Origin: a bacterium
GTDB taxonomy: Bacteria; UBA9089; CG2-30-40-21; SBAY01
Assembly: GCA_040757115.1 (NCBI GenBank)
Contig: JBFLYA010000030.1
Location: forward strand, 11,233-26,595
Length of the DNA stretch: 15,363 bases
Direction of reading: 5' to 3'
The notes beneath the pieces are model-generated. The model had not been told where the DNA came from, made no database searches, and was given only the letters and a program-made list of their open reading frames with translations. Positions 35 through 15,295 of this stretch are shown piece after piece. The position numbers were made by a program, and so were the translations under genes. How positions within the stretch are numbered: position 1 is the stretch's first letter; the number at the start of each line of letters is the position of its first letter.

Positions 35-118
35 CATCTTGAATTGTGAATTGGTATTCTGAAATAAGATACTTTAGCCAGCAAGGAGAAAAGAAAAAAG
101 ACGGCAGTGTGCAGCTTT

Positions 119-254
119 TTCTAACCATTCGCTGCACCTGACTGCGAGGGGCTGTGGCGTGATTGAAATAGTTTTGTGCTTTATCAAAGTTTTAACCTAG
201 TTATAAAGTTTAGTGGTAATTTCCCCTCGCAGCAGGTGAGCTCAATCGTTAGCC
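119..254 (+). other. attC site 1 (integron recombination site)
   Basis: The R'' box is TTCTAAC at 119-125 and the R' box is GTTAGCC at 248-254. The outer arms are complementary: CGCTGCACCTGACTGCGAGG on the left pairs with CCTCGCAGCAGGTGAGC on the right, with a few unpaired bases as in folded attC sites. The arms are a matched pair (type A/A). About 70 bp of AT-rich central sequence, conserved in the other sites here, lies between them. It closes a cassette that begins left of the window. Confidence 0.9.
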
Positions 255-340
255 GGATACCAACTTACTATTTATGCTTAAGAAGAAAACTGGACTATGC
301 TATCACAGAATTTGAACTTGTTGATTGAATGAGGTGGACG

Positions 341-550
341 ATGAATGCTATAGAATTTCAAACCACAGTCAAGAACAATATCATTGAGATTCCTCACAGA
401 TACCTCAGCAATCTCACGAAGCGCGTGCGTGTGATCTTGCTGGTTGAAGGAAACAAACCTGCTGTGAATTTCATTGATGAATTACTTGCACATCCTGTGC
501 AAGTAAAAGGTTTTCGTTCTTTAACGAGAGAAGAAGTCTATGCCAGATAA
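341..550 (+). CDS. VapB-like antitoxin (partner of PIN toxin)
   Basis: This small protein of about 69 aa probably neutralises the PIN toxin encoded directly downstream. Its N-terminus (MNAIEFQTTVKNNIIEIP) has the short beta-hairpin pattern of antitoxins that pair with VapC-type toxins, and the C-terminus ends in a FRSLTREEVYAR tail, typical of the toxin-binding end in this group. I chose the ATG at 341 because GAGGTGG lies just before it; an in-frame ATG at 329 has no ribosome-binding site and overlaps that motif. The stop codon overlaps the toxin start by 11 nt, indicating translational coupling. The family call rests on the motif pattern and the context; the exact antitoxin family is not certain. 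Confidence 0.75.
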   Translation: MNAIEFQTTVKNNIIEIPHRYLSNLTKRVRVILLVEGNKPAVNFIDELLAHPVQVKGFRSLTREEVYAR

Positions 551-968
551 CGAACGCACAACTTGCTTCATTGATACGAATATCTGGCTATATGCCTTTA
601 TCGAAGGGGATGACTCAACCAAATCGGGAATAGCACGCGCGCTGATTCAAGAAACGGCACCTATGCTTAGTACACAGGTGATCAACGAAGTATGTGTCAA
701 CTTGCTGAAGCAAGCCAACTTTACCGAAGAACAAGTATGCCAACTCATCGAGTCGTTCTATGAGAAATACGTCGTTACTGAGTTAAACAAGTCAGTGCTA
801 TTGACTGCGTCGCAACTTCGCCAGCAGTATTCCTTGTCCTTTTGGGACAGCACGATTATAGCAAGTGCACTCAGTGTGGGTGTTCCCATTCTATATTCCG
901 AAGACTTGCAAGAGGGATTAATTATTGAAAGGCGACTTAAGGTGCTCAATCCATTCGGACAGAGATAG
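540..968 (+). CDS. vapC: PIN-domain toxin, VapC family
   Basis: A predicted Mg2+-dependent RNase, the toxin half of a type II toxin-antitoxin pair. The 142-aa protein has the four acidic PIN residues in the expected order: D12 in FIDTNIW, E50 in STQVINEV, D103 in SFWDSTIIASA and D122 in YSEDLQEG. Length and domain layout are those of a complete single-domain PIN protein. The start at 540 overlaps the antitoxin stop. The gene fills integron cassette 1 (249-1186) together with its antitoxin. VapC enzymes commonly cut tRNA or rRNA; the substrate of this one cannot be read from the sequence. Confidence 0.9.
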   Translation: MPDNERTTCFIDTNIWLYAFIEGDDSTKSGIARALIQETAPMLSTQVINEVCVNLLKQANFTEEQVCQLIESFYEKYVVTELNKSVLLTASQLRQQYSLSFWDSTIIASALSVGVPILYSEDLQEGLIIERRLKVLNPFGQR

Positions 969-970
969 TT

Positions 971-1103
971 GGAGATATTTTACGGTCAAACCGTGAATGT
1001 GGAATGCACAATAATTTGGTGAGGCAGAGGAAAAGGAAAAGACAGCGAATCAAAGCTTTTGTCTAACCCTGCGTTGCAGTTGACGGCGGGGGACTGTGCC
1101 GTG
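971..1103 (+). repeat. Duplicated cassette end, copy 1 (copy 2 at 4442-4573)
   Basis: About 130 bp, from GGAGATATT through the tail GCAGAGGAAAAGGAAAAGAC and the first 40 bp of attC 2, recur almost without change at 4442-4573. The two genes upstream (PIN toxin and Cys-rich protein) are unrelated. Identity stops inside the attC, after GGGACTGTGCCGTG. No gene is visible in 969-1060 beyond this. Confidence 0.9.
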
Positions 1104-1192
1104 GTCAGAGTTTTGTGGTCTCTCAAAGTTTTATCTTGCTATCAAACTTTTGTGGTAATTCTCCCCGCCGCACCTGAACTTTATCGTTAGAC
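1061..1192 (+). other. attC site 2
   Basis: R'' is GTCTAAC at 1061-1067 and R' is GTTAGAC at 1186-1192; these two boxes are perfectly complementary. The arms are a variant pair: TTGCAGTTGACGGCGGGGG on the left, CCCCGCCGCACCTGAAC on the right. From about 1087 to the R' box the sequence is identical to the matching part of attC 12 (10266-10370). Confidence 0.9.
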
Positions 1193-1265
1193 ATAAGGTG
1201 GAGCGTATTATCGCGAATATCAAATCGAGATATCCACATTCCATAGAAATGAAAGGGAAAGGTCA

Positions 1266-1550
1266 ATGCATATCATTACTCGAAAACGGTTGAATGAATT
1301 TGCAGAGAAACATCCTGATGCCAAGTTGGTTCTTCAACATTGGTATGGTTTGATGAAATCGGGACGGTTTCGTTCGTTTCCAGAATTGCGTGCAGTCTTT
1401 CAGGACGCTGACCAGATAGGAAAATTGACCGTTTTTAATATTGGCCGCAAAGTGCGTCTAATTGCAGCTATCCATTACAATCGACAGAAGGTTTACATTC
1501 GTGCTGTATTAACGCACGACGAGTATAATAAAGGCTTATGGAAGGAGTAA
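1266..1550 (+). CDS. higB: HigB-type mRNA interferase toxin
   Basis: A 94-aa protein of the HigB group of the RelE superfamily, a ribosome-dependent endoribonuclease that cleaves mRNA during translation. Family signatures visible are MHIITRKRLNEFAEKHPDA at the start, HWYGLMKSGRFRSFPELR in the middle, VFNIGRKVRLIAAIHYNRQKVYIR, and the ending VLTHDEYNKGLWKE. Length is normal for a complete HigB. AAAGG lies upstream of the start. Toxin-first order with the antitoxin 3 nt after the toxin stop is typical of higBA modules. It occupies cassette 2 (1187-1940). Confidence 0.92.
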   Translation: MHIITRKRLNEFAEKHPDAKLVLQHWYGLMKSGRFRSFPELRAVFQDADQIGKLTVFNIGRKVRLIAAIHYNRQKVYIRAVLTHDEYNKGLWKE

Positions 1551-1553
1551 CCC

Positions 1554-1781
1554 ATGATGGTAGAAGTACAAACAGCGGAACGCGTCTGGCCAACACTCGC
1601 ACCAGTCGTATTTGCTCCGCATACGGAGAGTGAATATCAACGACTTGTGGCTTTACTTGATGCTTTGATTGATGTGGTAGGTGAGAATGAAAGTCATCCC
1701 CTATCCTCGTTGATGGAAGTGATTGGTGTGCTGATTGAAAAGTATGAGGACGAACATGTCCCAGAACTGACAGAGATATAG
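1554..1781 (+). CDS. HigA-like antitoxin lacking the HTH domain
   Basis: The partner of HigB. The 75-aa protein matches the N-terminal region of HigA-family antitoxins: a TAERVWPTLAP start, then EYQRLVALLDALIDVVGE, then ESHPLSSLMEVIGVLIEKYE and DEHVPEL. In full-length relatives this is followed by a Cro/C1-type helix-turn-helix of about 50-60 residues. Here the protein stops at ELTEI, and no reading frame before the attC (1815) continues the HTH. AAGGAG within the last codons of higB serves as ribosome-binding site. The toxin-binding part may be intact, but autoregulation by DNA binding is probably lost. Confidence 0.8.
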   Translation: MMVEVQTAERVWPTLAPVVFAPHTESEYQRLVALLDALIDVVGENESHPLSSLMEVIGVLIEKYEDEHVPELTEI

Positions 1782-1814
1782 CCATTGAATCATTTGTAGA
1801 GAATAGCAAGAGAA

Positions 1815-1946
1815 TTCTAACCAGTCGTTGCATCGGACGGCGGGGGAGCTAACCACTTCTCAAAGTTTTGTGGTTGACCAAAGTTTTGTTGTGTATATAA
1901 AGTTTAGTGGCAATTCTCCCCGCCGCCGCTGAACTCAGCGTTAGAC
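1815..1946 (+). other. attC site 3
   Basis: R'' is TTCTAAC (1815-1821) and R' is GTTAGAC (1940-1946). Arms are of type B on both sides: GTTGCATCGGACGGCGGGGG pairs with CCCCGCCGCCGCTGAAC. It closes the higBA cassette. R'' is not perfectly complementary to the first bases of its own cassette, so the end may have been exchanged or has mutated. Confidence 0.88.
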
Positions 1947-1988
1947 AAATAGAATATTAACACTCAAGATGAATTGGTAAAATGAAAT

Positions 1989-2285
1989 ATGTTATTATTT
2001 GAGTGGGATCCAAGAAAAGCAATTAAGAATATAAATGTCCATGGTATATCTTTTGATGAAGCCAGCACAACTTTTAGCGATACACTATCATTAACAATCT
2101 ATGATCCGTTACATTCTGAGCAAGAAGACAGATTTATTTTAATTGGGAATTCACTTAAACATCGTGTGTTAGTAACTGTTCATACAGAAAGAGGGGATAA
2201 AATTAGAATAATAAGCTCGAGAAAGGCAACAGAAAATGAAAGGAGACAATATGAAGAGAATGCAAAAAGATCGGGATATGCTTGA
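1989..2285 (+). CDS. brnT: BrnT-family toxin
   Basis: A 98-aa protein of the BrnT group, a RelE-fold ribonuclease toxin. The family pattern is clear throughout: FEWDPRKAIKNINVHGISF at the start, DEASTTFSD, the DPLHSEQEDRFILIG block, HRVLVTVHTERGDKIRIIS, then SRKATENERRQYEE. Length is normal. No strong ribosome-binding site is visible before the ATG, and the nearer upstream ATG (1982-1984) runs quickly into a stop. It is the first gene of cassette 3 and overlaps the start region of its partner. Confidence 0.9.
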   Translation: MLLFEWDPRKAIKNINVHGISFDEASTTFSDTLSLTIYDPLHSEQEDRFILIGNSLKHRVLVTVHTERGDKIRIISSRKATENERRQYEENAKRSGYA

Positions 2286-2460
2286 AGAATATGATTTCAG
2301 CAAAGGTATTCAGGGAAAATACGTAAAAAAATACTGCGAAGGGACAAATGTTGTAGTTATTGATACTGATGTTATCAAATTTTTCCCTGACCATGAATCT
2401 GTAAATCAAGCATTAAGATCATTAATTGATATTATTAAGAGACAAAAACAATATGCTTAA
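2251..2460 (+). CDS. Probable antitoxin of the BrnT toxin
   Basis: A protein of about 69 aa starting MKRMQKDRDMLEEYDFSKG, followed by GKYVKKYCEGTNVVVIDTD and a C-terminal helix (ESVNQALRSLIDIIKRQ). The pattern matches small conserved proteins encoded right after BrnT/RelE-like toxins, with the VVVIDxDV(xx)FPD(xx)SVNxALR segment resembling the DNA-binding part of BrnA-like antitoxins. The ATG at 2251 is preferred over 2236 because AAAGGAGA precedes it at good spacing. It overlaps brnT by 35 nt in another frame. Its TAA stop lies inside the R'' box of attC 4, so the cassette end supplies the stop codon. Confidence 0.75.
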   Translation: MKRMQKDRDMLEEYDFSKGIQGKYVKKYCEGTNVVVIDTDVIKFFPDHESVNQALRSLIDIIKRQKQYA

Positions 2461-2586
2461 TCACTCGCTGCACCTGACTACGGGGGGCTGTGCCGTAATT
2501 AGAGTTTTGTGGTATCTCAAGCTTTTATCTTGTTTACAAAGTTTGGTGGCAATTCTCCCTGCCGCCGCTGAACTCAATTGGTAGAA
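2455..2586 (+). other. attC site 4, degenerate in both core boxes
   Basis: The central region and both arms are clearly attC, but R'' reads GCTTAAT (AAT instead of AAC) and R' reads GGTAGAA (GGT instead of GTT). Arms are of unlike type: CGCTGCACCTGACTACGGGG on the left and CCCTGCCGCCGCTGAAC on the right. With the conserved GTT changed, integrase exchange here should be poor, so cassettes 3 and 4 may move only as a unit. Confidence 0.8.
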
Positions 2587-2596
2587 CTAAAATATT

Positions 2597-3118
2597 ATGG
2601 GATACAATCTGTATCTGGTAAAAAAAGAAAATTGGTTTGATAAGGAGAATGTATTTACCCAAACCGAATGGGAAGATATTCAAAAATATCAGATATCGAA
2701 TTGGCTTTATTTTGATGAAGGGACAATTACAATTAAAAATCCTTCGAAAGAACAAGTAATAGATTTTGTCAAGATGGCAAAAAGATATAATTGGTTCGTT
2801 CAAGGCGACGATGGCGAAAAATATTCAGAAGATGGCTCGCCTATTTATGAGAAACCTAAAAAATCTGGACTATTTGGGGGAATTAGATATCTTATATCAG
2901 AGTTATTGGCAAAAAAGAAAATCGAACATTCAATGAAAAGTGTAACTTGCCCTTTTAAAGTCGGAGATAAAGTAAAAACGACACACAGAACGGGTGGTGT
3001 TGTTATTGACATAGATCCAAAAGCAAATCATGGCTTAGGCAGTATCAAGGTAAAGTTTCCTGATGGAGTTGTCTTAGGGGGAACTTTTATTGCTCACGGT
3101 TTTGAAAAAGAGTTCTAA
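2597..3118 (+). CDS. Unrecognised 173-aa cassette protein, possibly two domains
   Basis: I do not recognise a named family. The N-terminus (MGYNLYLVKKENWFDKEN, then TEWEDIQKYQ) resembles a family of small cytoplasmic hypothetical proteins that begin MGYDLxITRKxxWxDE. An internal stretch includes VQGDDGEKYSEDGSPIYEKP, then a basic linker around residues 87-115. The C-terminus from about 120 (CPFKVGDKVKTTHRTGGVV, IDIDPKANHGLGSIKVKF) looks like a small beta-barrel of KOW/SH3 type (pattern-based inference). No signal peptide or membrane segment. The ribosome-binding site is weak. The TAA stop lies within the R'' box of attC 5. It is the only gene of cassette 4 (2581-3167). Confidence 0.7.
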   Translation: MGYNLYLVKKENWFDKENVFTQTEWEDIQKYQISNWLYFDEGTITIKNPSKEQVIDFVKMAKRYNWFVQGDDGEKYSEDGSPIYEKPKKSGLFGGIRYLISELLAKKKIEHSMKSVTCPFKVGDKVKTTHRTGGVVIDIDPKANHGLGSIKVKFPDGVVLGGTFIAHGFEKEF

Positions 3119-3173
3119 CAACTCGCTGCAGCCGACATAGCTTACGCTCGGTGGCTGAGCTCGGTCGTTAGGT
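3113..3173 (+). other. attC site 5, short type (61 bp)
   Basis: R'' is TTCTAAC (3113-3119) and R' is GTTAGGT (3167-3173). The arms CTCGCTGCAGCCGACATAGC and GCTCGGTGGCTGAGCTCGG pair as an imperfect hairpin with almost no central spacer. It lacks the 70-bp core of all the other sites here and looks like an ordinary short attC from another source. R'' with its flank (GTTCTAAC) matches the first bases of its cassette, GGTAGAAC, except for the mutated GGT. Confidence 0.85.
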
Positions 3174-3194
3174 CTGAAAAATTGGAGGATAGTC

Positions 3195-3410
3195 ATGAAT
3201 ACATTGACATATGATAATTTAATTGACACTGTAAAATCATTATCAATTGAAGAAAAAGAGGAACTTAAATTTTTGATGGAGAGGTATCTTATAGAGGAAC
3301 GGAGAGAAGAAATCTATAAAAATTATCAAAATAGCTTGAAAGAAGCTGAAAAAGGGAAGTTAGAATTTTCAAGTAATGTCCGCAAACTAAGGAAAATGGT
3401 AGAAAAGTGA
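3195..3410 (+). CDS. Antitoxin of a RelE/ParE-type module
   Basis: A 71-aa protein, MNTLTYDNLIDTVKSLSIEE followed by KEELKFLMERYLIEERREEI and NYQNSLKEAEKGKLEFSSN. Almost entirely helical and highly charged, as expected for the toxin-wrapping antitoxins paired with RelE/YafQ-like toxins. GGAGG lies upstream at good spacing. The stop overlaps the toxin start in a GTGA tetranucleotide (3407-3410). The family is inferred from pattern and position; the DNA-binding part is not obvious. Confidence 0.75.
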   Translation: MNTLTYDNLIDTVKSLSIEEKEELKFLMERYLIEERREEIYKNYQNSLKEAEKGKLEFSSNVRKLRKMVEK

Positions 3411-3676
3411 TAGAAATCAGTTTTAGTTCTTCTTTTAAAAGAGCGTATAAGAAAAGGATTAAATGGTCTGATGAGTTAGAACGGAAATTTTGGGAAAGAG
3501 TAGAGATGTTTACAAAAGCTCCTTTTGATAGAATTTTGAAGACACACAAGTTATCAGGAAGACTACAAGAATTATGGAGTTTTAGTATTGAATACGATGT
3601 CCGGGTAATATTTTATTTTGCTGATAGGAATAGGGTGGTATTTGTAGATATAGGAAAACATGATGAAGTTTATTGA
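3407..3676 (+). CDS. RelE/YafQ-type mRNA interferase toxin
   Basis: An 89-aa protein with the RelE fold pattern: FSSSFKRAYKKRIKWSDELE at the N-terminus, a KAPFDRILKTHKLSGRLQEL block, then SFSIEYDVRVIFYFADRNR and VVFVDIGKHDEVY at the end. Length is complete for the family. It starts with GTG, sharing the overlap GTGA with the antitoxin stop, so the two are translationally coupled. The stop codon touches the R'' box of attC 6. Family members cut mRNA in the ribosome; the target is not predictable here. Confidence 0.9.
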   Translation: MIEISFSSSFKRAYKKRIKWSDELERKFWERVEMFTKAPFDRILKTHKLSGRLQELWSFSIEYDVRVIFYFADRNRVVFVDIGKHDEVY

Positions 3677-3808
3677 CCTAACAATTCGTTGCAGCGGACG
3701 GCGGGGGACTGTGCTGTAATTGAGAGTTTTGTAGTATATCAATAGGTAATCGTGCTTACAAAGTTTGGTGGCAATTCTCCCTGCCGCCGCTGAACTCAAT
3801 TGTTAGGC
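3676..3808 (+). other. attC site 6
   Basis: R'' is ACCTAAC (3676-3682) and R' is GTTAGGC (3802-3808). R'' with one flanking base, GACCTAAC, is perfectly complementary to the first bases of its own cassette, GTTAGGTC at 3167-3174, which fixes the boundaries of cassette 5. Arms are a matched B/B pair (GTTGCAGCGGACGGCGGGGG with CCCTGCCGCCGCTGAAC). Confidence 0.92.
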
Positions 3809-3825
3809 AGATAGGAGACAACGGG

Positions 3826-4080
3826 ATGATACCCATACAATGTAAGAAATGCGGACATATTCAAGATGCTGGGAGTACCTTGTCACCCAATGACACCTGT
3901 GAACGATGCGGTACACCCATCTACGGACCCAGAGCTCACAATCCAACAACTATGGCAATTCTCGCCGTAGTAACAGTGATTGGTGCCGCGATACTGGGTA
4001 TGCCCAAGAACTTCCTGCTCATAGTCGGTATCTTGGCTGCCTTCTTGGTGATCAACGCAGTCATAAGGCGAAAGAGGTGA
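3826..4080 (+). CDS. Small zinc-ribbon membrane protein
   Basis: An 84-aa protein of unknown function. The N-terminal 35 residues hold two CxxC pairs (IQCKKCGHI and DTCERCGTP), a rubredoxin/zinc-ribbon-like knuckle likely to bind one Zn2+. Two hydrophobic segments follow (about residues 44-60 and 63-79), with a basic end RRKR, so the ribbon would sit on a membrane hairpin. AGGAGA lies 7-8 nt before the ATG. The next gene starts 3 nt after the stop and has similar base composition, so the two form one unit in cassette 6. Confidence 0.7.
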   Translation: MIPIQCKKCGHIQDAGSTLSPNDTCERCGTPIYGPRAHNPTTMAILAVVTVIGAAILGMPKNFLLIVGILAAFLVINAVIRRKR

Positions 4081-4083
4081 GAC

Positions 4084-4440
4084 ATGGGGACAGTCGTATT
4101 TCTCGTCGCCATTATAGTCGGTGCTGTGATATCCGCAATCTTTTACTGGCTTTTCCCCTTTGAGCCGCCTATTCAGAAGTGCGAAACATGCTTTCACCAA
4201 ATGCAGGTCCTTAAGTTCACAGGCAGAGGTGGAGTGATGCTTTTGCGGGAAGAAATGGTCTCCGGCATCGGCTATGCGGAACAATGTTGGGAGTGTGGCA
4301 GGGTGTATTGTGCCGAGTGCTATCCTTCGCGTCCGCGGAACACTTGTGTTTGCGGACGGGGGAGGGACGCTGTGCGTCATATCGGAGGCACAGTCTATCG
4401 AGGTTCATTACGGCTTGTGAAAGTCCGATACATCAATTAA
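4084..4440 (+). CDS. Cys-rich membrane-anchored protein, unknown function
   Basis: 118 aa. An N-terminal membrane segment (about residues 4-24, VFLVAIIVGAVISAIFYWLF) is followed by a cytoplasmic or periplasmic domain with four Cys pairs: CETC, CWEC, CAEC and CVCG, a spacing that suggests two zinc sites of treble-clef/RING-like type. The ending GGTVYRGSLRLVKVRYIN is unremarkable. AGGTGA, overlapping the stop of the previous gene, is the ribosome-binding site. Composition is more GC-rich than neighbouring cassettes, which fits separate origins of cassettes. The two neighbouring zinc proteins may act as a complex; this is inference. Confidence 0.65.
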   Translation: MGTVVFLVAIIVGAVISAIFYWLFPFEPPIQKCETCFHQMQVLKFTGRGGVMLLREEMVSGIGYAEQCWECGRVYCAECYPSRPRNTCVCGRGRDAVRHIGGTVYRGSLRLVKVRYIN

Positions 4441-4441
4441 A

Positions 4442-4573
4442 GGAGATATTAGGGTCAAACCGTGAATGTGGAATGCACAATAATTTGGTGAGGCAGAGGA
4501 AAAGGAAAAGACAGCGAATCAAAGCTTTTGTCTAACCCTGCGTTGCAGTTGACGGCGGGGGACTGTGCCGTGA
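4442..4573 (+). repeat. Duplicated cassette end, copy 2 (copy 1 at 971-1103)
   Basis: Near-perfect copy of 971-1103, differing by a 1-2 nt change near its start. It includes the tail GCAGAGGAAAAGGAAAAGAC and the left part of attC 7. Confidence 0.9.
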
Positions 4574-4661
4574 TTGAAAGTTTTATAGTATCTCAAAGGT
4601 TAATCGTGCGGACAAAGTTTGGTGGTAATCCTCTCCGCCACCGCTGAACTCAGTGTTAGAC
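4530..4661 (+). other. attC site 7
   Basis: R'' is GTCTAAC (4530-4536) and R' is GTTAGAC (4655-4661). The left arm equals that of attC 2 (TTGCAGTTGACGGCGGGGG), but the right arm is of type B (CTCCGCCACCGCTGAAC), so the site is a hybrid. It closes cassette 6. Confidence 0.88.
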
Positions 4662-4673
4662 TAAAAGAGATTA

Positions 4674-4858
4674 AACCACGAACGACCCACAAGTGGGTAC
4701 CCCGGAAGAACACGAAGTGAAATTTGATGAAATATCTAATAAAGTTAGCAAATATTAAAGTTGGCTTGTTGATAAATTTCAATGTAGAAAGTTTGAAAAA
4801 AGGCATAAAAAGATTTGTCTTGTCCAATCTTCGTGACCTTCGTGCTCTTCGTGATGAA
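4674..4858. repeat. CACGAAG-type palindromic repeat pair
   Basis: The left arm AACCACGAACGA (4676-4687), resuming with GAACACGAAG after a short insert, faces the right arm CTTCGTGACCTTCGTGCTCT (4829-4848). The insert contains a perfect small hairpin, ACCCAC-AA-GTGGGT. The pair flanks the remnant at 4727-4861. Apart from that remnant no gene is visible between attC 7 and 4930. Confidence 0.75.
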
Positions 4859-4861
4859 TAG
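4727..4861 (+). pseudogene. C-terminal remnant of a GxxExxY-type protein
   Basis: An open frame of 44 codons, MKYLIKLANIKVGLLINFNV then ESLKKGIKRFVL, followed by SNLRDLRALRDE read through the flanking simple repeat. The part up to RFVL matches the usual ending of GxxExxY proteins (a PD-(D/E)xK-like family: ...YLK..G.KVGLLINFN...L..GI.R.V). The catalytic N-terminal two thirds are missing. No ribosome-binding site is present. Probably a dead leftover in cassette 7. Confidence 0.65.
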
Positions 4862-4930
4862 TTACATAAATCTTTTTATTATCTCTAAAATATAAAAGTA
4901 TTATACCAGACCTTGATTATGTAGAAATAA

Positions 4931-4983
4931 GAAGAAAAGACGGCGAAGTGGAATTTTTACTTAATCAATCGCTGATCCTGACC
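4931..4983 (+). other. Cassette tail plus truncated attC
   Basis: The tail GAAGAAAAGACGGCGAAGTG is followed by an R''-like ACTTAAT (4959-4965) and the beginning of a left arm (CAATCGCTGATCCTGACC). The rest of the attC is absent, and a small transposable element starts at 4984. The same tail precedes attC 8 at 5873-5908, so both ends derive from one cassette lineage. Non-functional as a recombination site. Confidence 0.75.
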
Positions 4984-5192
4984 GTAATACGTCAGTTATT
5001 TGGGGGAATGAACATTAACCTGCGGAGGACAGAGCAATGAAAATAGTAGGCAAGTAGGTAGTAGGGAAGTAGGAAAGGGATAAAGGATGTGCACGGTATT
5101 CCTCTTCTGGGGGCAATGTCTCCCCCTTTCCTACTTTCCTACTCTCCTACTTCCTACTTTCAGGAGAATCCCCCATTTCAGTGACGCATTAC
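4984..5192. mobile_element. MITE-like element, 209 bp, with TIR and 8-bp TSD
   Basis: The ends are imperfect inverted repeats of about 26 bp: GTAATACGTCAGTTATTTGG at the left and, reading inward from the right end, GTAATGCGTCACTGAAATGG, both followed by GGGA. The element is flanked by the direct repeat TCCTGACC (4976-4983 and 5193-5200), the mark of a target duplication. Its core (5039-5164) is an AGTAGG hairpin, nearly identical to 10074-10184. There is no coding capacity. It sits next to the broken attC. Confidence 0.85.
5039..5164. repeat. AGTAGG hairpin repeat, copy 1
   Basis: The arms GTAGGTAGTAGGGAAGTAGG and CTACTTTCCTACTCTCCTAC are self-complementary around a spacer that includes AAAGGATGTGCACGGTATTC. 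Copy 2 at 10074-10184 differs by a 9-bp deletion in the left arm and a few changes. Confidence 0.88.
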
Positions 5193-5211
5193 TCCTGACC
5201 GATTTTTTCAC

Positions 5212-5240
5212 TTGACAACAAATATCAACAATGATACTAT
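5212..5240 (+). promoter_or_regulatory. Strong sigma-70-type promoter of hicAB
   Basis: TTGACA (5212-5217), 17-bp spacer, TACTAT (5235-5240). The expected transcription start falls at or within a base or two of the hicA ATG (5247), and no Shine-Dalgarno sequence is present, so a leaderless mRNA is likely. Confidence 0.7.
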
Positions 5241-5246
5241 ATTTAC

Positions 5247-5507
5247 ATGGCAAAGGTTGAAGAAATTATTACCCGTATGAAGCGGAATCCTAACGATATC
5301 CGATTCAGTGAGTTGTGCAAGGTATGTAATTACTACTTTGGAAAATCTCGTCAGAGTAGTAGTAGTCACCGAGTATATAAAACTCCATGGCAAGGTAATC
5401 CACGGATTAACATACAAAATAATAAAGGAAAAGCTAAAACATACCAAATAAAACAGGTCATTTTAGCTATTGAAAGATTGGAGGTAGAACATGGCCATAA
5501 AAAATGA
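5247..5507 (+). CDS. hicA: HicA mRNA interferase toxin
   Basis: An 86-aa double-stranded-RNA-binding-fold toxin that cleaves mRNA independently of the ribosome. Visible signatures are the start MAKVEEIITRMKRNPNDIRF, the conserved catalytic histidine in SSSSHRVYKTP, and the ending KTYQIKQVILAIERLEVEHG. Longer than the minimal HicA (about 60 aa) but within the range of the VEDI..R...NP.... subgroup. The start has no ribosome-binding site; see the promoter. It overlaps hicB by 17 nt. Confidence 0.88.
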   Translation: MAKVEEIITRMKRNPNDIRFSELCKVCNYYFGKSRQSSSSHRVYKTPWQGNPRINIQNNKGKAKTYQIKQVILAIERLEVEHGHKK

Positions 5508-5907
5508 TCGTTATACCTATCGAGTAACATGGTCAGAGGATGATAATGAATATGTTGGTTTATGTATAGAGTTTCCAGGTTTGAGTTGGCTTGCTAAAAC
5601 TTCTGAAGATGCCTTAAAAGGGATACAGAGATTAGTTGCTGATGTTATAAAAGATATGTTTGAAAATGGTGAAACTATACCTAATGCAATATCCTGTAAA
5701 CAGTATAGTGGTAAATTTATGGTACGCGTCCCACCTGAAGTTCATCGGAAGCTTGCAATTAAGGCGGCAGAATCAGGAGTCAGTTTAAATCGGTTTGCCA
5801 GTTCAAAATTAAGTCAAGGAGTTGAATTGAAATCAGACTTTGGTTATGGAATACAGGAAAAATTAGGAAGGAAGGAAAAAAGACGGCGAAGTGGAATTTT
5901 TACTTAA
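5491..5907 (+). CDS. hicB: HicB antitoxin
   Basis: A 138-aa antitoxin. The N-terminal domain (RYTYRVTWSEDDNEYVGLCI, EFPGLSWLAKTSEDALKGIQ) is the partial RNase H-like HicB fold that binds HicA. The C-terminal part (MVRVPPEVHRKLAIKAAESG, VSLNRFASSKLSQ) is a ribbon-helix-helix-type DNA-binding domain, so autorepression is likely. GGAGG precedes the ATG. The final 13 residues (GRKEKRRRSGIFT) are encoded by the shared cassette tail, and the TAA stop is inside the R'' box of attC 8, so the original C-terminus may have been replaced when the cassette end was exchanged. Confidence 0.9.
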   Translation: MAIKNDRYTYRVTWSEDDNEYVGLCIEFPGLSWLAKTSEDALKGIQRLVADVIKDMFENGETIPNAISCKQYSGKFMVRVPPEVHRKLAIKAAESGVSLNRFASSKLSQGVELKSDFGYGIQEKLGRKEKRRRSGIFT

Positions 5908-6034
5908 TCAGTCGTTGCAGCGGACGGCGAGGGACTGTGCCGTGATTGAAAGTTTTGTAGTATCTCAAGGGATAATCATGCGGACAAAGTTTAGTGGCAA
6001 TCCTCCCCGCCGCACCTGAACTTTATCGTTAGAC
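5902..6034 (+). other. attC site 8
   Basis: R'' is ACTTAAT (5902-5908; AAT rather than AAC) and R' is GTTAGAC (6028-6034). Left arm type B (GTTGCAGCGGACGGCGAGGG), right arm CCCCGCCGCACCTGAAC, a hybrid pair. The defective R'' may lower exchange at this site. Confidence 0.85.
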
Positions 6035-6074
6035 GTATACCACTGGAAGAAAAATGATCTTTAGGAGGGCTTAA

Positions 6075-6797
6075 GTGAGTTCATTGTTGATTGGAGTAAT
6101 TGCTTCTTTAATTTCTACTATCATAGGTTACTTAATAGCTAAGGCAGTTCAATATTTGAGAGAATTAAGACCACTCCAAAAAACTTGGCAGTTTAGAAAG
6201 GATGAGCAAATTTGTGTTTTTATAGCGAGTCCTGGAGAAATAGATACAGGTGTCTATAAAAAGAGAATTACTACTTTAGGCCATATTTATGGTTTTGCTT
6301 ATATTTTAAATTCTATTAAAAAGGGATATCCCAATTTAGAAATTAATCATCTATATTTCACCCGAGACTCAAAAACCGATAATTTCTCTTCCGAACTCCT
6401 TGGGTCAACTGGTATTTGTTTAGGAGGACATAAACATAATTGGGTAACAAAATTATTCCTTGAAGAGATACATCCACCAGTTGTGTTCGATGAAAACGAT
6501 AACTTAATAGACTTACTGAATAAAAAAATATATAAACCTAAAGTAGAAGACGATAGAATATTAGAAGATTATGGAATAATTATCAAAACAGTAAATCCCA
6601 ATAACAGAAGGAACAAGGTCTTCATATTTGCAGGTTGTCATACTTACGGGGTTATTGCTGCAGCCAAATTCTTCTACGAAAATCTCCCTAAAATGGAAAT
6701 AGTTAAGTACAACCAATTCGAAGTTATAGTAAGTGGGAAGGTTATAGGTTCTCATGTATATCAGTTAAATAAAATAGACCAGCATATAATAGATTGA
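6075..6797 (+). CDS. Membrane-anchored protein of unknown function
   Basis: A 240-aa protein starting with GTG after a good AGGAGG. Residues 4-24 form one membrane segment; the remainder is soluble and probably cytoplasmic, with alternating beta/alpha pattern. Motifs that stand out are EQICVFIASPGEIDTGVY, STGICLGGHKHNWVTKLFLE (a Gly-Gly...Asn...Thr loop), YGIIIKTVNPNNRRNKVF and FIFAGCHTYGVIAAAKFFYE. The last three recur, from memory, in conserved hypothetical proteins with patterns like GGP..N..T, DYG.I.R..NP and AG.H.YGT.AAA, a Rossmann-like arrangement. I cannot name a family or a reaction. It is 12 nt upstream of the HAD gene and both are AT-rich, so they form a single two-gene module in cassette 9. 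Confidence 0.65.
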   Translation: MSSLLIGVIASLISTIIGYLIAKAVQYLRELRPLQKTWQFRKDEQICVFIASPGEIDTGVYKKRITTLGHIYGFAYILNSIKKGYPNLEINHLYFTRDSKTDNFSSELLGSTGICLGGHKHNWVTKLFLEEIHPPVVFDENDNLIDLLNKKIYKPKVEDDRILEDYGIIIKTVNPNNRRNKVFIFAGCHTYGVIAAAKFFYENLPKMEIVKYNQFEVIVSGKVIGSHVYQLNKIDQHIID

Positions 6798-6809
6798 GGG
6801 AGGTTATTA

Positions 6810-7520
6810 ATGGAAAAAGTTATATTATTTGATATTGGAAAAACTTTAATTGATGGAGATGCTATTATTAATGGAGCGTTAGAACACTCTGCTAAGAAAT
6901 TGAAAAAGTTAAAATTCATCGATGATGAGGAAAAATTTATTATAGCCTATTTAGAGGCAGACAAAGATACTACTTTTGCCCATATACATCATACTTACTC
7001 AGATTTTGAAATAATAAAAAAAGCATGGAAAAATCTTGGTCGTGAGGATAACTACAAAGTTTATGCTAATTTTCTCCTTGAATATAGAAATTATGTAAGG
7101 AGCAAAATTAAACCTGATTCAAAGATTTTAAAAACATTCCAACATTTACAGAATAAGAAGATGTTGCTTGGAATTGCTTCAGATGGTACTATCGTAGAAC
7201 AGTTAGAAACTCTTGTGCGATTAAGAATAATTTCATATTTAGAACCCAACTTAATTTTCGTGTCTGAAGATATTGGAGTTGAAAAAACCAATAAAGATTT
7301 CTATAAATATATTCTCCAAAAGAATGGTAATCCAAATAGAAGAATGGTTATAGTTGGAGATAGACTTGAAGCTGATATTCTTATACCAAAGCAATTAGGA
7401 TTTAAAACAGTGCTGGTTCTCAAATATGCAAAATATATAGAAGAAAAAATTAAATATGTAAACCCTGATTTTGTAATAAATGACATTCCTGAGATGGAAA
7501 GAATTGCTGATTTAATATGA
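6810..7520 (+). CDS. HAD-family hydrolase, motif I altered
   Basis: A 236-aa haloacid-dehalogenase superfamily protein. Motif I is ILFDIGKTLIDG with nucleophile D8, but the second Asp (+2) is Gly10. Motif II is the S/D pair in LGIASDGT, motif III the Lys in GVEKTNKDFYKYIL and motif IV VIVGDRLEADILIPKQLGFK. A helical cap (about residues 20-110) places it in the C1-cap group. Loss of the general acid/base Asp is known in some FDxGxT members and suggests altered or slow phosphatase activity. GAGGGAGG is the ribosome-binding site. Substrate unknown; coupling to the upstream membrane protein suggests they act together. Confidence 0.85.
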   Translation: MEKVILFDIGKTLIDGDAIINGALEHSAKKLKKLKFIDDEEKFIIAYLEADKDTTFAHIHHTYSDFEIIKKAWKNLGREDNYKVYANFLLEYRNYVRSKIKPDSKILKTFQHLQNKKMLLGIASDGTIVEQLETLVRLRIISYLEPNLIFVSEDIGVEKTNKDFYKYILQKNGNPNRRMVIVGDRLEADILIPKQLGFKTVLVLKYAKYIEEKIKYVNPDFVINDIPEMERIADLI

Positions 7521-7536
7521 GATTTGAGTTATATGG

Positions 7537-7556
7537 CGTCTAACAAAAAAATGAAC
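7537..7556 (+). other. Stranded R'' box of an older attC
   Basis: CGTCTAAC (7537-7544) is perfectly complementary to GTTAGACG (6028-6035), the first bases of cassette 9. It lies 16 nt after the HAD stop codon, where the cassette's own attC is expected. The following AAAAAAATGAACCAGACG does not resemble the local attC family and breaks off into repeats, so it may be what remains of a foreign-type attC. Confidence 0.5.
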
Positions 7557-7564
7557 CAGACGAG

Positions 7565-7596
7565 GATAGTGACGGGGTCGGATAGTGCCGGGGTCA
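7565..7596. repeat. 16-bp imperfect tandem repeat
   Basis: GATAGTGACGGGGTCG is followed directly by GATAGTGCCGGGGTCA, with two differences. The GTGCCGGGGTCAGACC motif resembles end sequences I associate with REP-type transposase elements, but this is from memory and unverified. Confidence 0.7.
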
Positions 7597-7600
7597 GACC

Positions 7601-7861
7601 TCGAGTGAGTGTTGACAAGAAAAACTACATTTTGTTTGACGATGAACAAATTTTAGTGTATGTATAACTCTATTAAAATAAAGCAATTAAGAAATTAGGT
7701 ATAAACTTACATGGAGTATTCACTAATTCATATCATAAGATTTTGATCATAAATGAAAAAGTGGAGTATCTTTACATCTATATTCAATCTATTGTTTTTC
7801 AATGGGTTATGCAATATTCATCAAATTATATAGATGAAAAGATTTGTCAACACTCACTCGA
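7601..7861. mobile_element. Inverted-repeat-bounded element, 261 bp, non-coding
   Basis: Perfect 18-bp inverted repeats, TCGAGTGAGTGTTGACAA (7601-7618) and TTGTCAACACTCACTCGA (7844-7861), enclose an AT-rich interior. The interior has one open frame without a start codon (from about 7677) that I do not recognise. No clear flanking target duplication. Together with 7521-7600 this explains the gene-free stretch before attC 9. Confidence 0.75.
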
Positions 7862-7893
7862 AAGCAGAATTAACTCAGCAAAATGCAGCTTTT

Positions 7894-8025
7894 GTCTAAC
7901 CAATCGCTGCACCTGACTGCGGGGGGCTGTGCCGTTTTCAATGTTTTGTGGTATCTCAAGCTTTTATCTTGTTTACAAAGTTTGGTGGTAGTCCTCCCCG
8001 CAGCAGGTGAGCTCTATCGTTGTGC
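7894..8025 (+). other. attC site 9, with R' variant GTTGTGC
   Basis: R'' is GTCTAAC (7894-7900); R' is GTTGTGC (8019-8025). Arms are a matched A/A pair (CGCTGCACCTGACTGCGGGG with CCCCGCAGCAGGTGAGC). The bases after the first G of R' belong to the next (serpin) cassette, which explains the unusual GTTGTGC. The inner core equals that of attC 4. Confidence 0.9.
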
Positions 8026-8044
8026 GGAAGGAGGTTGAAAGAAA

Positions 8045-9274
8045 ATGCGAGGATTTCATACCGCTGTAACACTTTTCCTGGTAATTCTGGCCGCAATACC
8101 ACGCGTGTTCTCTGCAGAGGCGCCCTCTGCTGATCTAAAGGCCGTTGTCAATGGTAATACCCAGTTTGCGCTTGATTTGTATTCAAAGTTGAAAGAGACG
8201 ACGGAAGCCAATCTCTTTTTCTCTCCGTACAGTATCTCGGTCGCACTGGCCATGACTTATGGCGGTGCACGAGGCAACACGGCAAAGGAGATGGAAAATA
8301 GTCTGCATTTCACACTTAAAGAAAAAACCCATCTGGCATTTGCTGAACTGGACACGAGGCTTGACGAAGTACAGAGGAAAAGGAAAGTGCAATTGCACAT
8401 TGCGAATTCCCTTTGGCCTCAAAAGGACTACCGTTTTCTTCCTGAATACATCTCGTTGATAAAGCAGCACTACGGAGTCTCCATCACACCATTGGACTAC
8501 ACCAAAGCAGTGGAGGAAGCTTGTAGGATCATCAACAAATGGGTTGAAGATGAGACAAAGGAGAAGATCAAAGACCTTATTCGTAAAGGCGGTCTGAATC
8601 CTCTAGTCCGTCTCGTCTTGGTCAACGCTATTTATTTCAAAGGAGACTGGGCCAGTCAATTCGATCCAAAACAAACAGCCAACATCAACTTCACCTTATT
8701 AAACGGCGAGAAGAAGCGAGTTCCTATGATGCAGCAGAAAGGTAAGTTCAGATACCGGGAGATAGAAAAGGCTCAATTGTTGGAGTTGCCCTATATTGGC
8801 AAGCAATTATCAATGATAATTCTTCTCCCACAGGACCCAAATGGCCTTTCCGATATTGAGAATCAATTGTCAGAAAGGAAACTCGATTCTTGGTTTTCCA
8901 ACCTTACTGAGGAGGAAGTCAAGGTTTACCTACCTAAGTTCAAAATAACTTGGGGTACATTTGAACTGAACGATCAGCTCAAAGCATTGGGTATGCGAGA
9001 TGCTTTCGTTTTTAGCCGGGCTGACTTCTCTGGCATGGATGGCACGAAAGATCTGTATATCAGTTTGGTCCTTCATAAAGCCTTCGTTGAAGTCAATGAA
9101 GAGGGTACTGAGGCAGCCGCAGCCACAGCTGTGACTATGAAGGTAGGAGGTCGTCTTCCTAGAATACGAACCTTCAAAGCAGATCACCCATTTGTTTTTT
9201 TCATCCGTGACAATACCACAGGAAGTATTTTGTTTCTCGGTAGAGTAGTCGACCCAAGCAAAAAAGAAGAATAA
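8045..9274 (+). CDS. Secreted serpin (serine protease inhibitor)
   Basis: A 409-aa complete serpin. Residues 1-23 form a signal peptide (FHTAVTLFLVILAAIPRVFS, probable cleavage near 23/24), so it acts outside the cytoplasm. Serpin hallmarks: ANLFFSPYSISVALAMTYGG near 57-76, LVNAIYFKGDWASQFDP in the middle, and the hinge VEVNEEGTEAAAATAVTM before the reactive loop. The hinge has the GTEAAAAT pattern with small side chains needed for loop insertion, so it should be an inhibitor, not a storage-type serpin. The ending ADHPFVFFIRDNTTGSILFL with GRVVDP is typical. The loop (KVGGRLPRIRT) is slightly long; P1 is ambiguous, with Gly by counting from the hinge and Arg nearby. AAGGAGG lies upstream, inside the cassette's first 15 bp. 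It fills cassette 10 and is more GC-rich than neighbours. Confidence 0.95.
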   Translation: MRGFHTAVTLFLVILAAIPRVFSAEAPSADLKAVVNGNTQFALDLYSKLKETTEANLFFSPYSISVALAMTYGGARGNTAKEMENSLHFTLKEKTHLAFAELDTRLDEVQRKRKVQLHIANSLWPQKDYRFLPEYISLIKQHYGVSITPLDYTKAVEEACRIINKWVEDETKEKIKDLIRKGGLNPLVRLVLVNAIYFKGDWASQFDPKQTANINFTLLNGEKKRVPMMQQKGKFRYREIEKAQLLELPYIGKQLSMIILLPQDPNGLSDIENQLSERKLDSWFSNLTEEEVKVYLPKFKITWGTFELNDQLKALGMRDAFVFSRADFSGMDGTKDLYISLVLHKAFVEVNEEGTEAAAATAVTMKVGGRLPRIRTFKADHPFVFFIRDNTTGSILFLGRVVDPSKKEE

Positions 9275-9279
9275 TGACC

Positions 9280-9412
9280 GCACAACAAATCGTTGCAGCG
9301 GACGGCGGGGGACTGTACCGTGATTGAAAGTTTTGTAATATCTCAATGGATAATCGTGTTTACAAAGTTTAGTGGTAATCCTCCCCGCCGCCGCTGAACT
9401 TTGTCGTTAGAA
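9280..9412 (+). other. attC site 10, with variant R'' GCACAAC
   Basis: R'' with flank, CCGCACAAC (9278-9286), is perfectly complementary over 9 bp to GTTGTGCGG (8019-8027), the start of the serpin cassette, so 8020-9406 is one intact cassette. R' is GTTAGAA (9406-9412). Arms are a matched B/B pair. Confidence 0.93.
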
Positions 9413-9636
9413 TGAAAAAATAATCATACAAAGTCACAAAGAAATTGAATAAAAAGAATAAATCTTTGTGTACTTTGAGGCTTTGTGTGAGGATATAAAA
9501 GAAAAATTCTAACCCTTCGCTGCACCTGACTGCGAGGGGCTGTGGCGTGATTGAGATAGTTTTGTAGTTTACCAGAGTTTTATCTTGCTTATGAAAGTTT
9601 GGTGGTAATTCTCCCCGCCGCATCTGAACTTTATCG
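9407..9636 (+). other. Gene-free integron cassette, 230 bp
   Basis: The cassette begins GTTAGAAT at 9406 and ends with R'' ATTCTAAC (9506-9513), perfectly complementary over 8 bp, so its boundaries are certain. Between them are about 95 bp with no plausible ORF, made mostly of a CACAAAG/CTTTGTG palindromic repeat. Confidence 0.85.
9430..9492. repeat. CACAAAG/CTTTGTG palindromic repeat
   Basis: The left arm CAAAGTCACAAAGAAATT faces the right arm AAATCTTTGTGTACTTTGAG followed by GCTTTGTGTG. It could form an imperfect hairpin. It has the same layout as the CACGAAG pair at 4674-4858 but with almost no interior. Confidence 0.75.
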
Positions 9637-9642
9637 TTAGAC
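9507..9642 (+). other. attC site 11
   Basis: R'' is TTCTAAC (9507-9513) and R' is GTTAGAC (9636-9642). Left arm type A (CGCTGCACCTGACTGCGAGG), right arm CCCCGCCGCATCTGAAC, a hybrid pair. Confidence 0.88.
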
Positions 9643-9830
9643 AGGCTGGGCAGACAAGAAGAAGGATGAGTTATTCCTGTTGGAAGTTTTGGTGAGAATA
9701 TTTGCTCCTTTAGTGGACTATACCAGGACTGCGAGATTGATGCTTTCCTGAAAGAGTTGCTTATTCCTTAGAAGCAACAGGGGGAGGCTAAGAGGGGCTA
9801 CTGAAAGGTGATAGTTAAGTAAGATAGAGG
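9643..9830. other. Gene-poor stretch of cassette 12
   Basis: No complete gene. One frame without a start reads VIPVGSFGENICSFSGLYQD then CEIDAFLKELLIP before a stop near 9770; it might be the tail of a lost small gene, but I do not recognise it. The rest up to the mobile element is featureless. Confidence 0.4.
9823..9830. repeat. Target-site duplication GATAGAGG, left copy (right copy 10198-10205)
   Basis: GATAGAGG occurs immediately outside both inverted-repeat ends of the element at 9831-10197. Confidence 0.85.
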
Positions 9831-9904
9831 GTAACTATTCAGCATACCAAGCAAGTAGGAAGTAGGAAGTAGGAAAGTAGGAAGTAGGAAGAGGGGAAAA
9901 TACT

Positions 9905-10030
9905 TCATACTATTTTACTCTTAATTGATTTGATTAAACCTATAAGCATCCTACTCACTTCTTCAGATATATCCCAAATGGATTGAAAATCTGGCAGATA
10001 ATTAAGATCTTTAGATAGAATTAGATAATA
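9905..10030 (-). pseudogene. C-terminal remnant of a four-helix-bundle (S23/IVP-like) protein
   Basis: The minus strand reads YYLILSKDLNYLPDFQSIWD then ISEEVSRMLIGLIKSIKSKI and V before a TGA stop. This matches the ending usual in the four-helix-bundle family related to the protein of 23S rRNA intervening sequences (EYYLILAKDLGYL... EEVSRMLNGLIKSL). Two more codons upstream there is a stop in the simple repeat, so roughly two thirds of the gene are missing. Not functional. Confidence 0.75.
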
Positions 10031-10073
10031 CCTTTCTTACTTTCCTACTCTCCTACTTCCTACTTTCAGGAGG

Positions 10074-10184
10074 AAATAGTAGGCAAGTAGGTAGTAGGAA
10101 AGGGATAAAGGATGTGCACGGTATTCCTCTTCTGGGGACAATGTCTCCCCTTTCCTACTTCCCTACTCTCCTACTTTCCTACAG
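10074..10184. repeat. AGTAGG hairpin repeat, copy 2
   Basis: Shares GTGCACGGTATTCCTCTTCT and both arms with the copy at 5039-5164. The left arm lacks 9 bp present there. Confidence 0.88.
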
Positions 10185-10239
10185 GCTGAATAGTTACGAT
10201 AGAGGAAGTAAAAAGAAAGAGACGGCGAAGTGCAGCTTT

Positions 10240-10371
10240 TTCTAACCCTTCGCTGCACCTGACTGCGGGGGACTGTGCCGTGGTCAGAGTTTTGTGGTCT
10301 CTCAAAGTTTTATCTTGCTATCAAACTTTTGTGGTAATTCTCCCCGCCGCACCTGAACTTTATCGTTAGCT
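10240..10371 (+). other. attC site 12, last of the array
   Basis: R'' is TTCTAAC (10240-10246) and R' is GTTAGCT (10365-10371). It is preceded by the shared tail AGACGGCGAAGTGCAGC. Left arm type A, right arm CCCCGCCGCACCTGAAC. No further attC is found to the right, and no sequence complementary to GTTAGCTC follows the next genes, so the array ends here or the next cassette has lost its attC. Confidence 0.9.
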
Positions 10372-13486: not shown

Positions 13487-13488
13487 AT

Positions 13489-14367
13489 ATGGGTAATTGG
13501 CGATTTTTACTCCTTTTTATTATTATAATCTTTGGCATTTCGCTTACAGTCATTAGTTTTAGAAAACAAATAAAAACACCTTTATCCTCTACACTCGCTC
13601 CTTTTTTTCAAATACTGGGAATATCAGTCAAGTCAGTTAACACAGCGATTTCCAGAATCATTCCCGTTGATGTACTTGACGAAAAAGAATATGGAGAAGC
13701 GATAGCCAAAGAGATTGAGTGTTCTTTGAGTGATAAAGGTACAGAGCACATATATTTAAATAATATTGTAACTCATCTGAGCCGATACGCCAAAAAGCCA
13801 TTTAAGTACCGTGTTTATGTTGATGATTATGGAGGAATACCTAATGCCTATGCACTTCCGGGTGGAGTAATTGTTGTTTCAAAGGCACTGCTTACAGTTT
13901 TGAACTCAGAGGCAGAGGTTGCCGCAGTTATTGCCCATGAAATGGGGCATATTGAATTATCACATTGCTTTGAAGCAGTAAAATATGAGTTACTTATGAG
14001 GAAAATAAAGAATGCTTCATTAGGTCAACTGGCTGATATGGCGATAGCTGTTCTTATTCGGCATTCTTTCAGCAAAACACAGGAAAACGAAGCAGATGAA
14101 TATGCATACAACCTTATCTTACAGACAAAGTATGACCCGCTTTGTGTAGGCAAAGCATTCAAAAGTCTTAATTCCTGGTATGAAAAACATATAGATAATA
14201 GACAATCAGATGATGAGGCTAATATTATACGGGACTATTTTCTTTCTCACCCCCCGTTGAAGTTACGGATGGAAAAGTTCACTGAGCGGGCTCAAGTATG
14301 GTGGAAAACGCACCCAAAAGAAAAACGGTTTTGGGGTGAAAGGAGAGAAGAACCGAAAGGATCGTAA
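13489..14367 (+). CDS. M48-family membrane zinc metallopeptidase
   Basis: A 292-aa protein. One N-terminal membrane anchor (residues 5-21, RFLLLFIIIIFGISLTVISF) precedes a peptidase domain. The zinc motif HEMGH is at residues 150-154 (VIAHEMGHIELSHC), and the third ligand is probably E201 in ENEADEYA. NAYALPGGVIVVSKALL before the motif and FLSHPPLKLRMEKF after it are typical of the HtpX/BepA/LoiP-like M48 group that degrades misfolded envelope proteins. It is second in the operon after the DUF2339 gene with 2 nt between them. No lipobox Cys is seen. Confidence 0.9.
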   Translation: MGNWRFLLLFIIIIFGISLTVISFRKQIKTPLSSTLAPFFQILGISVKSVNTAISRIIPVDVLDEKEYGEAIAKEIECSLSDKGTEHIYLNNIVTHLSRYAKKPFKYRVYVDDYGGIPNAYALPGGVIVVSKALLTVLNSEAEVAAVIAHEMGHIELSHCFEAVKYELLMRKIKNASLGQLADMAIAVLIRHSFSKTQENEADEYAYNLILQTKYDPLCVGKAFKSLNSWYEKHIDNRQSDDEANIIRDYFLSHPPLKLRMEKFTERAQVWWKTHPKEKRFWGERREEPKGS

Positions 14368-14570
14368 CTAAAGCTCCTTTTGTGAAATCAGCAAATCTGT
14401 GTAATCCGCAGAGAACATAAATTAACAAATCAAAAATTTATTAGAATACAAAATGTTGGGGGAAAAGACACCTAATGTGCAGGGACAAATTACAATCTCT
14501 AAAGAATATCGTAAGCGCTCAGGTGTAAGTAAGGGAAAATGGAAAAGTAGGGAAAAAGGGGAAAATATAA
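14368..14570. other. Gene-free region with repeat debris
   Basis: Contains GCAAATCTGTGTAATCCGCA, a simple-repeat fragment resembling the palindromic repeats elsewhere in the window. A frame at 14453 gives GQITISKEYRKRSGVSKGKW, similar to the start of AbrB-like DNA-binding domains, but there is no complete domain and it runs into the hdrA fragment. No clear terminator. Confidence 0.4.
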
Positions 14571-15295
14571 CTCAAAGAGATAAGTCCCCAAACACAAATT
14601 TATATTCTGTATCGAGACATAAGGACTTACGGCTTCCGTGAAGATTACTATCGTCAAGCACGCGAGGCGGGAGTAATCTTTATTCGATACGAAGAAGATG
14701 CAAAACCAAAGGTCAGAAGACAGAGGACAGACAACAGACCACAGACAACAGACCACAGAGGACAGATGACTGATGACAGAAGTCAGATGTCAGGAGTTAG
14801 ATTCTTTCCGAGTCCCGAATCCCGAGTCCCGAACCCCGAGTCCCGAGCCCCGAGCCCCGATTTTGAGTCAGAAATCGAAAATCTCCTGGAAGTAGAAGTT
14901 GTTGACCCGATAATGGGAGAGAAATTGGTTTTGAATCCGAATTTGGTGGTGCTGGCACCGGCTATTCTTTCAGACCCAGGAAATGAAAGTTTATCTCCAT
15001 TGTTGAAAAGGTAACATTGAATGCCGAGCGATTTTTCCTTGAAGCGCATATGAAACTTCGGCCGGTAGATTTTGCTTCAGAGGGTATGTTTTTATGTGGG
15101 CTGGCACATTCACCCAGGCTGATTGAAGAGTCCATCGCCCAGTCACAAGCCGCCGCTGGTCGAGCGGCTACTATCCTTGCAAAAGACCACTTAGATGTAG
15201 GTGGAGTTGTTTCGGTTATTGACGGAAATAAATGCGTTATCACCTATTTCGAACCGATAGTTATTCCCACTTTTTTCCCTGGTCACTTGAACTGA
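14571..15295 (+). pseudogene. hdrA: Decayed fragment of hdrA (heterodisulfide reductase subunit A)
   Basis: HdrA is the FAD/iron-sulfur subunit of heterodisulfide reductase-like electron-bifurcating complexes. Its middle-to-C-terminal part is recognisable: LKEISPQTQIYILYRDIRTY, GFREDYYRQAREAGVIFIRY (14571 on), LLEVEVVDPIMGEKLVLNPN, APAILSDPGNESLSPLL, then, after a frameshift near 15010, RFFLEAHMKLRPVDFASEGM, FLCGLAHSPRLIEESIAQSQ, AAAGRAATILAKDHLDVGGV and VSVIDGNKCV. The N-terminal half with the FAD site is missing. About 49 codons of simple repeats (14713-14860) interrupt it in frame. After KCV the CxxCxxxC ferredoxin loop is absent; the text jumps to ITYFEPIVIP. Not functional as HdrA. Confidence 0.85.
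14713..14861. repeat. Low-complexity repeat block inside the hdrA fragment
   Basis: Two parts: ACAGACCACAG-type repeats (about 14716-14792, AGACAACAGACCACAGACAA) and a 7-bp CCCGAGT-type repeat (about 14810-14861, CCGAGTCCCGAACCCCGAGT). Their combined length keeps the reading frame. Confidence 0.85.

Follow-up and report, generated by a model that had tools for sequence, protein, structure and literature searches.

Gene content of the window

The window, i.e., the whole stretch of 15,363 nucleotides analysed here, covers positions 11233-26595 of contig JBFLYA010000030.1 (C30) in a fragmented, MAG-like assembly of an uncultivated bacterium (4.3 Mb in 462 contigs). It holds part of an array of gene cassettes, and one of these cassettes carries a serpin gene (Table 1).

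Table 1 Features of the serpin cassette and its array. Positions refer to the window unless C30 is given
Feature	Position	Strand	Details and basis
Integron integrase (intI) fragment	C30:7354-7995	-	Directly precedes the array; contains a stop
Cassette array, portion in the window	118..10371	+	12 attC; more attC upstream on C30
attC of the preceding cassette	7894..8025	+	Alignment; covariance model, 138.8 bits; bottom-strand hairpin
Serpin cassette, 1387 bp	8020..9406	+	Cut points G|TT at both ends; 9-bp closure GTTGTGCGG/CCGCACAAC
Leader between R' and ATG	8027..8044	+	Ribosome-binding-site-like AAGGAGG; sequence reading
Serpin ORF, 409 aa, ATG start, predicted exported	8045..9274	+	PF00079, AlphaFold2, Foldseek
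Signal-peptide-like N-terminus	8045..8113	+	MRGFHTAVTLFLVILAAIPRVFS; hydropathy only
Hinge and reactive-centre loop, residues 352-384	9098..9196	+	EEGTEAAAATAVTMKVG/GRLPRIRTFKADHPFV; alignment with chloropin
attC of the serpin cassette	9280..9412	+	147.1 bits; bottom strand an interrupted stem with unpaired bases

Fourteen attC sites of ~132 bp on C30 align with a mean column identity of 80%. A covariance model was built from them, so they are its training set. With these sites included, the model gave 131 matches in the genome. Its matches were present in 18 of 21 genomes (the source genome and 20 relatives; the phylum sample comprised 19 genomes), and the sole congener examined had 91. On the bottom strand, most sites form a hairpin whose stem is interrupted and leaves some bases unpaired, as is typical for attC; sites n and o fold poorly. 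Some R boxes of neighbouring attC have decayed, e.g., GGTAGAA at 2579. The intI fragment on C30 covers profile positions 103-315 only, so that the N-terminal third is missing. A second intI, on contig C39, is intact (368.6 bits in a profile search); array and integron integrase are thus both present in the genome. Other cassettes of the array carry the toxin-antitoxin genes PIN, HigB, BrnT, YafQ, HicA, and HicB, and such cassettes are usual for large integrons. The product of an early cassette (L010 8453-9085) is a HEAT-repeat protein belonging to the DNA alkylation repair family.

Three further observations concern the contig. A unit of ~210 bp, made of an attC and its upstream leader, is repeated with 88-95% identity (window 971-1189 and 4442-4650, C30:10816-11032); the cassettes that follow the copies differ, as though attC and leader had been copied together. 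Past the last attC, the region 10508-14367 codes for a DUF2339-like membrane protein (992 aa) and for an M48 peptidase, and neither gene has its own attC. The end of C30 (window 14569-15238) is a partial copy, 88% identical, of an hdrA-like gene that precedes the array (C30:6354-7048), which is either a duplication or an assembly join.

Anatomy of the serpin cassette

The R' box of the upstream attC (8019-8025) doubles as the cassette's 5' end. This end, GTTGTGCGG, complements the cassette's own R'' box, CCGCACAAC, at 9 of 9 bases, the longest closure among the array cassettes checked. Each of the two sequences occurs once on C30 (8019-8027 and 9278-9286). With GTT and AAC taken as fixed, the chance that the six further bases match is ~3e-4 at the local base composition. 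The R' heptamer GTTGTGC was seen in 1 of 35 sites on four contigs of the genome, where GTTAG-types dominate, and the following cassette begins with GTTAGAA at 9406. Within the whole genome, the upstream attC and the cassette's own attC reach E ~1e-36 and ~1e-38, respectively, both sites being in the training set. Distances from R' to the start codon range from 24 to 592 nt in the source array. Searches in Rfam, NCBIfam, and PHROGs gave no match for the serpin or the attC.

An earlier note on this DNA had proposed an intact integron cassette with its own attC. The 9-bp closure and the attC at both sides confirm this. Its extent of 8019-9413 took in a few extra bases on each side; by integron convention, the cassette ends at the cut points given in Table 1.

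Serpin protein

The product matches PF00079 from position 2 to 370 of 370 (E 2.5e-126; 422.3 bits against a cut-off of 27) and is the only serpin in its genome. The best relatives of known structure are chloropin from Chlorobium limicola (PDB 8gxv; 6e-103) and leukocyte elastase inhibitor (4ga7). An AlphaFold2 model based on 41 homologues has a mean pLDDT of 85.8, and only the loop 366-378 falls below 50. Foldseek paired it with antithrombin, chloropin 8gxv, and other serpins at probability 1.00. As the top matches are mostly the "L" chains of antithrombin entries, several of which are cleaved forms, and as a strand is predicted at 354-365, we interpret the model as a loop-inserted conformation. 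This interpretation carries no information on the native state.

The hinge, EEGTEAAAAT, spans residues 352-361. Its P17-P9 portion (residues 352-360) fits the inhibitory motif ExGTEAAAA as given in PMC8233489, which predicts loop insertion and an inhibitory-type (suicide) serpin. After a single Arg, the N-terminus is strongly hydrophobic, with a peak mean Kyte-Doolittle value of 3.14 in an 11-residue window, and suggests that the protein is exported. Identity as a serpin, an inhibitory-type hinge GTEAAAAT, and a signal peptide had all been claimed before; the full-length match confirms the first, the motif is as described, and the hydropathy of the N-terminus resembles that of an export signal.

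Chloropin, whose inhibitory function is proven, resembles the window serpin in the full serpin fold, the hinge, the signal peptide (only predicted here), and the broad tree clade. The two differ at P1, which is Arg383 in chloropin (PMC10090351) and, by alignment with that residue and by the 17-residue hinge count, Gly368 here, with Val at P2. They also differ in setting: the window serpin is cassette-borne, and no report of a cassette context for chloropin was found in the literature consulted. Lys366 and Arg370 lie near P1, but either would be usable only with a shifted register. Gly is an unusual specificity residue at P1. Together with the Val at P2, it would fit a serpin that is not an inhibitor at all, or one directed at an unexpected class of target, e.g., papain-like cysteine proteases, and not at trypsin-, subtilisin-, or elastase-like enzymes. 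A neighbouring gene in a relative points the same way: in a genome of the same family (G003), a serpin adjoins a gene for a secreted papain-like protease (L027 6248-8796), possibly as an inhibitor-protease pair. That serpin, however, belongs to a different clade, and the P17-P9 match to the inhibitory motif argues for an inhibitor, so we regard this alternative as unlikely. According to a title cited in PMC10090351, miropin uses several bonds of its loop.

Expression

No sigma-70-like promoter was found on the + strand in 7500-9450, and no terminator was found near the serpin gene. Expression would therefore need read-through. The serpin cassette lies more than 11 kb away from the integrase, and with no promoter at hand it may be silent. 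It could then be a real, once-mobile cassette that sits deep in the array as a passenger with no present role. The truncated intI with its stop and the decayed R boxes of some neighbours are consistent with this. Against it, the ORF, the hinge, and the full fold are intact, which implies purifying selection until recently or a newly arrived gene. In addition, an intact intI is present elsewhere in the genome, and the ribosome-binding site permits translation by read-through. On balance, we doubt that the gene is without function; a secreted inhibitor carried as cassette cargo remains our preferred reading.

Serpin cassettes in other genomes

A scan of serpin gene flanks with a general attC regular expression gave mostly chance matches, and covariance models and a closure test were used instead. 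The test asks for a closure of at least 6 bp within set distances of the serpin gene, and it was applied to 167 distinct serpin loci. Closures were found at 5 of the 167 loci compared with 31 of 5360 in the control. The five are the window, three Omnitrophota genomes (L081, L122, and L060), and L175, whose closure (43 nt) we take as chance. Thus, three intact serpin cassettes besides that of the window were found, all in Omnitrophota (L081 3915-5245, L122 1412-2680, L060 3890-5180; the window cassette is 8019-9412 on the same count).

The four intact cassettes belong to two serpin clades. In all of them, the start GTTGTRCG stands exactly 26 nt ahead of the ATG, and the closure lies 9-12 nt past the stop codon. 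Two further Omnitrophota loci (L066 and L080) and one in Cloacimonadota (L078) share this leader, but their R boxes are mutated, and these cassettes look decayed. Taken together, the intact and decayed Omnitrophota cassettes resemble that of the window in GTTGTRCG 24-26 nt before the ATG, in a signal-like N-terminus, and in the hinge. Their serpins, in contrast, fall in a different clade and are 47-53% identical to the window serpin. All seven cassette serpins share the hinge and the export-like N-terminus.

At L081, the serpin cassette comes last in an array on a 15.8-kb contig, where another nine attC matches point the same way; three of the nine trained model R2, and the rest are independent of it. 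L060 and L066 each have a single attC immediately upstream, and both of these sites were used for training. For L081 and L060, R boxes were also read by eye. At L083, an attC stands beside a Phycisphaerales serpin, but it terminates a cassette that points the other way, and the serpin was not counted: the CAAX-protease gene with its own attC (3927-5100) lies tail to tail with the serpin gene.

That an ordinary chromosomal serpin came to lie between attC sites by chance or by assembly is very improbable: most serpin loci checked are without attC and the partial hdrA copy at the contig end speaks for a complex contig history, but the ends close exactly, orientation and spacing match those of other cassettes, the R' heptamer is unique among the 35, and three independent loci have the same anatomy.

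Distribution and ancestry

Serpins had been called rare in bacteria, which our counts contradict. A scan of GTDB gave at least 586 pattern matches and at least 556 relatives that passed, in many phyla. Serpins are present in 20 of 384 genomes of the phylum of an Omnitrophota locus, 45 of 124 for a Cloacimonadota locus, and 25 of 395 for a Desulfobacterales locus, the counts per phylum having been made with different cut-offs. Bacterial serpins are patchy but widespread rather than rare. They had also been called unusual as cassette cargo. The window is not unique in this respect, as a search of other loci, which the earlier note had proposed, found three more intact cassettes and three that look decayed.

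Serpin orthologues at the same chromosomal place without attC in relatives would have spoken against a cassette. None was found: the sole congener examined has no serpin, and the two serpins of G003, 51 and 48% identical to that of the window, lie elsewhere, at sites without attC. One of the two (on C183) recurs at L061 (SBAY01000342.1), which is labelled Nitrospira sp.; the NCBI label may be wrong. The closest GTDB serpins among the matches listed are 59-60% identical (L031 on the bin44 chromosome and L032 of Aminicenantes) and stand in unrelated contexts; in contrast to the window, the stretches examined around these two genes contain no attC. Phage or plasmid serpins were considered as a source and rejected, as the best matches are only 32-43% identical. 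Other mobile carriers of serpins do exist, namely a 13.7-kb Psychrobacter plasmid (H10 NZ_CP029790.1) and gut phage contigs (H16 MT835510.1), with 35-37% identity.

In a tree of 51 serpins, the window serpin groups with L031, L033, and Geomonas L037 (support 100/99), with L032 close to this clade. The Omnitrophota and Cloacimonadota cassette serpins form another clade with the C183 serpin of G003 (99/93). A constraint uniting the window serpin with that clade and its close relatives was rejected (AU p 0.0057; the group was chosen after the first tree). The AU test thus speaks against one shared origin of all serpin cassettes. Hence, serpins were probably captured at least twice, or once with later gene exchange of which no local trace remains. 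We also considered a recombinant 5' part that would connect the window serpin with the Omnitrophota cassettes, but identity shows no local rise. GTTGTRCG and the 26-nt spacing are common to both lineages although common descent of the genes is rejected.

Discussion

We consider it likely, with a probability of roughly three in four, that the locus is an integron gene cassette within a large chromosomal cassette collection and that it carries a bacterial serpin which is secreted and of the inhibitory type. The anatomy of the cassette, the identity of the serpin, its hinge, the abundance of attC, and the two lineages are legible in the sequences, and from them we infer export, inhibition, past mobility, and benefit. 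Under this reading, the integron integrase would have captured a circular molecule with the gene and its attC into the collection. If expressed, the serpin would be exported by its Sec signal. Once a protease had cut the exposed reactive loop, insertion of the alanine-rich hinge into beta-sheet A would trap the enzyme covalently. The cell envelope or its surroundings may thus be shielded from stray or foreign proteases.

Cassettes of large chromosomal integrons (Vibrio, archaeal and bacterial MAGs; PMC9668308) share with the window the attC structure, the R''/R' closure, one gene each, and many toxin-antitoxin cassettes, and exported proteins are common cargo among them. What sets the window cassette apart is its serpin and its 132-bp attC, whose family occurs across this small phylum. 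In the open-licence literature, we found no relevant paper on serpin cassettes, protease-inhibitor cassettes, or Omnitrophota serpins. The parts are already known; the combination of serpin and cassette and its recurrence are new.

Serpins entered the cassette pool, it appears, at least two times, once as the window serpin and once as the separate Omnitrophota/Cloacimonadota lineage. More tentatively, and with somewhat less than even confidence, we propose that serpins are recurrent integron cargo, i.e., a pool of exported suicide inhibitors that passes between distant phyla (the source phylum, Omnitrophota, and Cloacimonadota), was captured at least twice, and is favoured by selection as protection from foreign proteases. 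If true, this would explain part of the patchy distribution of serpins.

A phylogeny from 2021 (PMC8233489) describes the role of prokaryotic serpins as enigmatic, their distribution as sparse, and transfer between chordates and many prokaryotes as without a conceivable mechanism. A cassette-borne serpin has no bearing on transfer from or to chordates, but it offers a concrete vehicle for transfer among bacteria. An inhibitor famed from eukaryotes joins the list of integron cargo, and the benefit of serpins to environmental bacteria becomes testable in a portable unit. Unnamed cassettes may also be worth searching for exported protease defence.
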